Part shown: positions 29,222 to 30,022 of the stretch, piece by piece | How positions within the stretch are numbered: position 1 is the stretch's first letter | How the letters are laid out: each line of letters begins with the position of its first letter | Assembly: GCA_017545525.1 (NCBI GenBank) | Contig: JAFWMT010000007.1 | Span: forward strand, 1 to 64,000 | Reading direction: 5' to 3' | Origin: Candidatus Saccharimonadota bacterium | Lineage (GTDB): Bacteria > Patescibacteriota > Saccharimonadia > Saccharimonadales > Saccharimonadaceae | DNA length: 64,000 nucleotides | Translations under genes and position numbers: made by a program | Notes under the pieces: model-generated | What the model was told of the DNA's origin: nothing | Database searches by the model: none | What the model saw: only the letters and a program-made list of their open reading frames with translations

Positions 29222-30022
29222 TTATACCACCAAATTTATCAATTTATCTTTTTTTATAAAAATCGTTTTTTTCACCCCGCCCTTCAAATATTTTTGCAAT
29301 CTCTCATCATCTAATACTAACCCTTTGATTTTTTCTTCATCCTCTAAATCATTTGTCGAGACCTTAACCTTCGCTCTCAATTTTCCATTTACTTGTACAA
29401 TTAGCTCTGTCGTATCCGAAATTAAAAATTTTTCTTCCCATTTTGGCCACTCATCATCCGCCCCTAACTTTTCCAGCATTTCCGAAGCCAAATGCGGAGC
29501 AAACGGTTTCAACAACTTTGCTAGAACCACCAAATCTTCCTCGCTCGCTCCAGTTTTATAAAGTTCATTCACATATTCCATCAACGCCGCCACCGCCGTA
29601 TTGAAATTATATCGAAGTATATCTTCTGTGACTTTTTTAATGGTTTTATTCCTTATCATGACATTTTTCTTCCCTCTCGAACCGCTTCGCGCCGGCCCGT
29701 CGTTACGGGCGGCGCTCGCTAACTTGCTCCCGTCGTCGCAAATGTTCTCGAGTGAAGAAAAATCGTCATTCTTAAAAACTAACGTCCAACATCTATTCAA
29801 AAACCTATACACCCCTCCAACCGAATATATATCCCACTTTGTATCCGTATTATATGGCTGAACGAACATCACATAGACCTGTAAAGTATCCCTACCGTAT
29901 CCATTATTGACTATACCTAATGGGTCGGCCATATTCTCATCTAACTCCGGCCTTTTCTTTTTATCTGCTTCCCAAATTTTTTGCCATTTATGTTCAATTT
30001 TTAATGGTTCATATCTGTTCAC
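29222..30022 (-). pseudogene. leuS: Leucyl-tRNA synthetase remnant lacking the catalytic core
   Basis: An open frame of 266 codons beginning with GTG. Residues 1-20 (RYEPLKIEHKWQKIWEAD) are the LeuRS N-terminus. From about 36 (GIVNNGYGRDTLQVYVMF) it joins the LeuRS C-terminal part: anticodon-binding helices (GGVYRFLNRCW, NKTIKKVTEDILRYNFNTAV, LLKPFAPHLASEMLEKLG) and the C-terminal domain (ELIVQVNGKLRAKVKV). Everything between, including HIGH, the editing domain and KMSKS, is missing. A palindromic 101-bp insert supplies residues 87-120. It still has an extended -10 promoter seven bases before the GTG. A full leuS must exist elsewhere. It could survive to carry the promoter for trmH, or as a tRNA-binding protein. 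Confidence 0.8.
29663..29763. repeat. 101-bp palindromic GC-rich element inside the leuS remnant
   Basis: Ends are a perfect 10-base inverted repeat, ATTTTTCTTC (29663-29672) and GAAGAAAAAT (29754-29763), followed inward by TCGA on both sides. The centre has a strong hairpin, GCGCC-G-GCCCGT / ACGGGC-GGCGC with loop CGTT. The element is far richer in G+C than the gene around it, stays open in the gene frame (about 34 residues), and lies at a point where LeuRS has no such segment. It looks like a small palindromic mobile element comparable in concept to Rickettsia palindromic elements or REP sequences. No second copy was found in this window. Confidence 0.55.

Follow-up and report, generated by a model that had tools for sequence, protein, structure and literature searches.

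The window (the whole 64,000-nucleotide stretch of DNA analysed here) holds a minus-strand open reading frame related to LeuRS (29222..30022), which carries a palindromic insert in frame. The earlier note had reported a 101-bp palindrome in this gene; we confirm it at that place on the coding (minus) strand, with a longer true span of 112 bp including both locus-specific arms (29658..29769, minus strand), a bulge and a mismatch. The '+' strand of the element core coincides here with the minus, coding strand. A 73-bp core, common to other copies (29677..29749, minus strand; GAGAACATT...GGTTCGA on that strand), contains hairpin 1 (29724..29741, minus strand; TTGCGACGACGGGAGCAA) and hairpin 2 (29689..29715, minus strand), whose invariant GCCCGTNNNNACGGGC centre lies at 29695-29710. 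On the hairpin-1 side the core is flanked by a 5' arm (29750..29769, minus strand; GAGTGAAGAAAAATCGTCAT on the plus strand, with one extra base at 29764), and on the hairpin-2 side by a 3' arm (29658..29676, minus strand; ATGACATTTTTCTTCCCTC on the plus strand). The arms, 19 and 20 nt long, pair around the core if the bulged base and one mismatch are allowed. Protein comparison with empty leuS genes suggests that the 3' arm is the native flank (..KNVMIRNKTIKKV), and the 5' arm is probably its inverted copy.

The arms alone are not significant at leuS, because a stretch of 64 kb will contain ten-base arms at such spacing by chance: ten pairs of 10-12 nt are listed within the window. The inner hairpin is perfect, with one exact match in the window (0.73 expected even at <=2 mismatches). 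What shows the palindrome to be real is the recurrence of its core, with 10 copies in this genome and some 1,400 across the genus.

The earlier note had taken the host gene for LeuRS, and the relationship stands; the gene is, however, a truncated second copy, with a product of about 266 aa that is missing the catalytic and editing domains. A normal, full-length LeuRS of 811 aa, divergent from the window copy, is encoded elsewhere in the source genome, G000 (G000:C3:168416-170800), which suggests that the old leuS has been replaced and is decaying. The same insertion is found in the full-length LeuRS of a relative, G054, and is therefore older than the truncation.

A first DNA search of the source genome returned one weak second match, in truB, and a third insert, in recX, was seen on reading around it. 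The central hairpin CCCGTNNNNACGGG has 11 exact matches, and ten of them are inserts of the same architecture; the eleventh match (C9:8665) has no arms and was set aside as a chance match. The arm pattern that the earlier note proposed as a search, ATTTTTCTTC-(80)-GAAGAAAAAT, would match solely the leuS locus and its orthologue, and the ten-base terminal repeats do not mark the ends of the element: the arms are locus-specific and different in every copy. From our reading of the translations, the ten host genes are polA, leuS, obg, rluB/rsuA, nifS (cysteine desulfurase), recX, truB, der, tsaD and tlyA. Both orientations and several reading frames are represented among the inserts, and all ten are in frame within these conserved genes, as had been proposed for leuS. 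The obg gene of the source genome (locus L005) also has a second insert-like segment, GIRSHDEVERAGPVTTGAGDAPRERI, near the element site in obg of G043 and G004.

Across 174 genomes of the genus, the core hairpin pattern has 1,416 matches, compared with 29 for a reversed-pattern control; it is present in 155 of these genomes, at 0 to 39 copies per genome. In 252 other genomes of the order the pattern shows no enrichment over the control, and the loop sequences are unrelated. A longer core pattern was found at more than 80 loci in 84,980 species genomes. Among the 80 matches listed, 78 belong to Candidatus Saccharibacteria, many of them from the gut of goat, sheep, cattle, buffalo or deer, and the two from Burkholderiales are without arms. 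The core was not found in 2.9 million viral contigs, nor in the phages or plasmids searched, and a phage, plasmid or viral origin was rejected on this absence of matches. A search of Rfam gave no family, its sole hit being a chance one outside the core (E=3.9). Most stem-bearing copies (182/198) sit in open frames 80 aa or longer. The core itself shows no avoidance of stop codons, with 65% of frames open compared with 70% in shuffled cores.

A homologous gene without the insert is available for 107 sites. The safer figure for empty orthologues is at least 100, as some of the compared genes carry an insert of their own or one copy of a pair (sites 113 and 191 are examples). The earlier note had proposed a dispersed mobile element, to be given up if the copy were single and no relative had an empty site; with ten copies in the genome and at least 100 empty orthologous sites, mobility of the element is supported by these gene comparisons.

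The clearest empty site is that of recX in G027, CTCAGAGCGTCTTCT^GAGTTTTCT. The filled G000 gene shares this left sequence, continues with the core and an inverted copy of the left sequence with one added T, and resumes at the matching GAATTTTCT. This shows the left arm in recX to be native and the right arm to be its inverted copy, re-joined at GARTTTTCT. In tsaD of the empty genome G003 the left arm alone is present, in obg and fmt the right arm reads into conserved protein, and the L250 gene keeps both conserved flanks and has an added 18-nt inverted copy. The LeuRS of L247, compared with L337 at 93% protein identity, was also counted in support of the explanation favoured below. Overall, of 80 sites compared, 42 have one or both arms in agreement with the empty allele, where 8 would be expected, and at 18 both arms agree. 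At the best sites, native target sequence makes up one arm and its inverted copy the other. The first sites had suggested that the native arm is always on the hairpin-2 side. This was not borne out by PheT or by the wider set, in which, among the part of the sites where the native arm is decidable, neither side is significantly preferred (18:10, p=0.18). The net gain in length is variable and often just that of the core, which implies loss of some target sequence or drift of linkers. Elements also decay through internal deletion, as shown by arms with little or no core that look like remnants (L080 in tsaD of G018, L103 in tlyA of G005 and L063 in truB of G035).

The consensus architecture is arm - GAGRNC.T - hairpin 1 - about 6 nt - hairpin 2 - NCCGA - inverted arm, with a CCCGT/ACGGG centre in hairpin 2 and a core of 71-82 bp across copies. 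The pairing of the arms is specific to each copy: the basal stem scores at least 12 in 89% of 222 copies, compared with 4% when arms are swapped between copies. We found 54 pairs of copies with cores at least 97% identical and unrelated flanks, all with good stems; polA and der in the source genome and two copies within one L247 leuS gene are examples of near-identical cores with unrelated arms. Several of the 54 pairs, the two copies in that leuS gene among them, have 100% identical cores with full-length arms. Since identical cores carry unrelated but complementary arms, the arms belong to the target and exist early. Under strict scoring they end 19-22 nt from the core in 74 of 112 non-redundant copies. 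Both arms share a positional bias, roughly GRA-N5-AAA-N3-TCTTTC toward the core, with a spacing of about 10 bp, which suggests either a favoured target or protein recognition of a structure. The extra bases are not randomly placed, and at least one bulge at a preferred position is found in 81 of the 112 copies.

The arm design is shared by a second core family (GTCCTGCGGGACATGAAGACTTGGCCAGAGCGGCCCGGAGCGTGCCCGAAGGGCAC and relatives), which is unrelated to the main core, has several hairpins, and lies in tsaD, leuS and other places. It occurs seven times in the loci examined (L125 ~489, L086 ~1796, L282 3953, L301 435, L317 1716 and 6624, L198 3261), and all seven copies have long locus-specific inverted arms. 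The reaction that builds the arms is thus not tied to one core.

The element is dispersed, resides in frame in genes, has empty sites, and combines identical cores at unrelated loci with locus-specific inverted arms. We propose that it is probably a non-coding, non-autonomous mobile DNA of about 75 bp with two hairpins, and that most likely one target flank is copied by fold-back as the element inserts; this coupling is the inferred part of the explanation. The core would insert beside a preferred target, roughly GRA-N5-AAA-N3-TCTTTC^core, in a reaction coupled to DNA synthesis on a folded strand. The end of the core would fold back, and the adjoining target strand would serve as template for about 20 nt, after which the copied product would be re-joined to the other flank, often at a chance match of a few bases. 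Survival would favour copies that preserve the frame and lie in surface linkers, so that nearly all visible copies would be in-frame inserts in housekeeping genes. The acting enzyme may be the replication and repair machinery, or a recombinase. Simple copying does not predict the defects of the arms, in which about 5% of positions are mismatched and 5-6% gapped, the bulges falling mainly at positions 7-14.

Quasi-palindrome template switching is a known process that 'corrects' imperfect palindromes, and the arms could have grown by it: the core would insert in the ordinary way with short ends, and replication would later copy one flank onto the other, so that the arms lengthen and co-evolve. 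Orthologous inserts at the same codon have arms that diverged between species yet stayed complementary (leuS G000/G054, nifS G000/G003, L026/L221, L257/L265), as would be expected either if the palindrome is corrected in concert or if separate insertions hit one target and each copied its own host; the net length near that of the core alone at many sites likewise looks as if a flank had been overwritten. Gradual growth is nevertheless unlikely, because arms of full length are already present where cores are 100% identical, the arm ends cluster at 19-22 nt with no spread with age, and some sites retain both native flanks and gain an arm. Another proposal is that the insertions chose targets that were already palindromic, as for the Yersinia YPAL repeat, with both arms native. 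The empty recX site does form a near-perfect inverted repeat of 11 bp, partial symmetry is seen at some others, and the 18 sites matched on both sides agree with this proposal, but 227 empty sites fold into hairpins no more readily than control positions taken within the same genes (-9.7 vs -10.0 kcal/mol), and just one arm is native in recX, tsaD and L250; we consider it highly improbable.

The defects of the arms bear on two further explanations. Selection for a stem in the mRNA (for ribosome bypassing, RNA excision or mRNA protection), like that on translational bypassing elements, would agree with the residence of most copies in genes and with the strength of their stems. In the coding sense, however, G.U pairs are not in excess over A.C (41 vs 57 under strict scoring; 228 vs 229 with looser arms), and therefore mRNA folding does not maintain the arms. 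Copies in both gene orientations and in intergenic DNA have equally good arms, and the frame is open, so bypassing is not needed; such selection is scarcely to be expected. On the '+' strand of the core, G.T-type mismatches exceed A.C-type (68 vs 33, copy-level p=0.002), an excess confined to the inner 7 bp (35:8; further out 33:25). This tolerance of G.T on one strand would suit an IntI/attC-like or HUH TnpA-like recombinase that mobilises the core and binds single-stranded DNA when folded with extrahelical bases, the bulged basal stem being its binding site. So would the positional target motif with its ~10-bp spacing and the preferred bulge positions, since positions 8-14 take 69 of the 102 extra bases of the 5' (hairpin-1) arm, and positions 7-8 take 25 of the 40 found on the 3' arm. 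Such an enzyme is still very unlikely, as TnpA is found in few genomes of the genus and not in the source genome, the element lacks attC-type R boxes, and its arms are specific to each locus.

Profile searches of 170 genus genomes for TnpA and reverse transcriptase found no dedicated enzyme. PF01797 (Y1 transposase, TnpA) is present in 8 of the 170 and absent from G000, so the REP-type transposase suggested in the earlier note was rejected as mobiliser. Reverse transcriptases (RVT_1, type unassigned) are common in the genus, with 95 of 170 genomes positive; G000 has none, and the copy number of the element is not linked to their presence (8.5 vs 7.7 copies, p=0.47), on which grounds a reverse transcriptase was likewise rejected.

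The palindromic elements of Rickettsia (RPEs) are closest in behaviour, in agreement with the likeness drawn in the earlier note. RPEs are palindromes of ~105-146 bp, present in tens per genome and in frame in conserved protein genes, by a mechanism that is unknown (PMC2229807, PMC10969869). The Saccharibacteria element is also a dispersed palindrome of 100-150 bp (ten copies in this genome and 1,416 core sites across the genus) that resides in frame in protein genes. The lineage is a different one, and the likeness is one of behaviour. In the published description, terminal inverted repeats form part of the RPE itself, target duplication being unknown (PMC2229807), whereas in Saccharibacteria no family-wide terminal inverted repeats are found and the arms are target-derived. 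With respect to a link with dyad symmetry, Yersinia YPAL/RU-2 is the closest system, a foldable, target-dependent small repeat tied to dyad symmetry at its target (PMC2229807). YPAL lies between genes and generates target duplications of 3-26 bp; the duplication in Saccharibacteria is inverted and within genes. REP/BIME sequences mobilised by TnpA are likewise short, GC-rich and foldable, but REPs are 20-40 nt long and extragenic, and the genus is nearly without Y1 transposase. The arms of integron attC sites fold over about 20 bp and contain extrahelical bases. Folded arms of that length with bulged bases also occur here, but the element has no conserved boxes (the consensus contains no R-box-like end), its arms are locus-specific, and no cassette arrays were seen. 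Fold-back copying also gives rise to inverted repeats in quasi-palindrome template-switch mutation, which is a type of mutation, whereas the element is dispersed and has a conserved core. Unlike a MITE, it has neither element-specific terminal inverted repeats common to all copies nor a direct target-site duplication, the flanking repeats being inverted, and the copy number linked to reverse transcriptase that would mark a retroelement is not seen.

In the literature searched, inverted, target-derived arms are not described for RPE or YPAL, and a mirror-image copy of the landing site as a flank signature was found described for no mobile DNA. The earlier note knew of no such element in Saccharibacteria; we also found none reported in that literature, coverage of which is incomplete. 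The element is new for this lineage and has an unusual insertion footprint. We see about an even chance that it represents a class of mobile DNA in which insertion is inherently coupled to an inverted target duplication of ~20 bp, each copy has a basal stem built from its host, and the machinery is common to unrelated cores.

The carriers are tiny gut- and animal-associated Saccharibacteria, with hundreds of copies of a foldable element of ~75 bases, and form a second lineage with massive in-frame insertion of palindromes into essential genes, in minimal genomes. Short selfish DNA can thereby give housekeeping proteins extra loops of 25-40 residues. How RPE-like palindromes move is a long-standing question. 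The target-copied arms would be the footprint of the insertion reaction, so that this movement becomes testable by comparative genomics, with some 1,400 copies and over 100 filled/empty pairs now available for it. The same test may be applied to the Rickettsia and Wolbachia elements.
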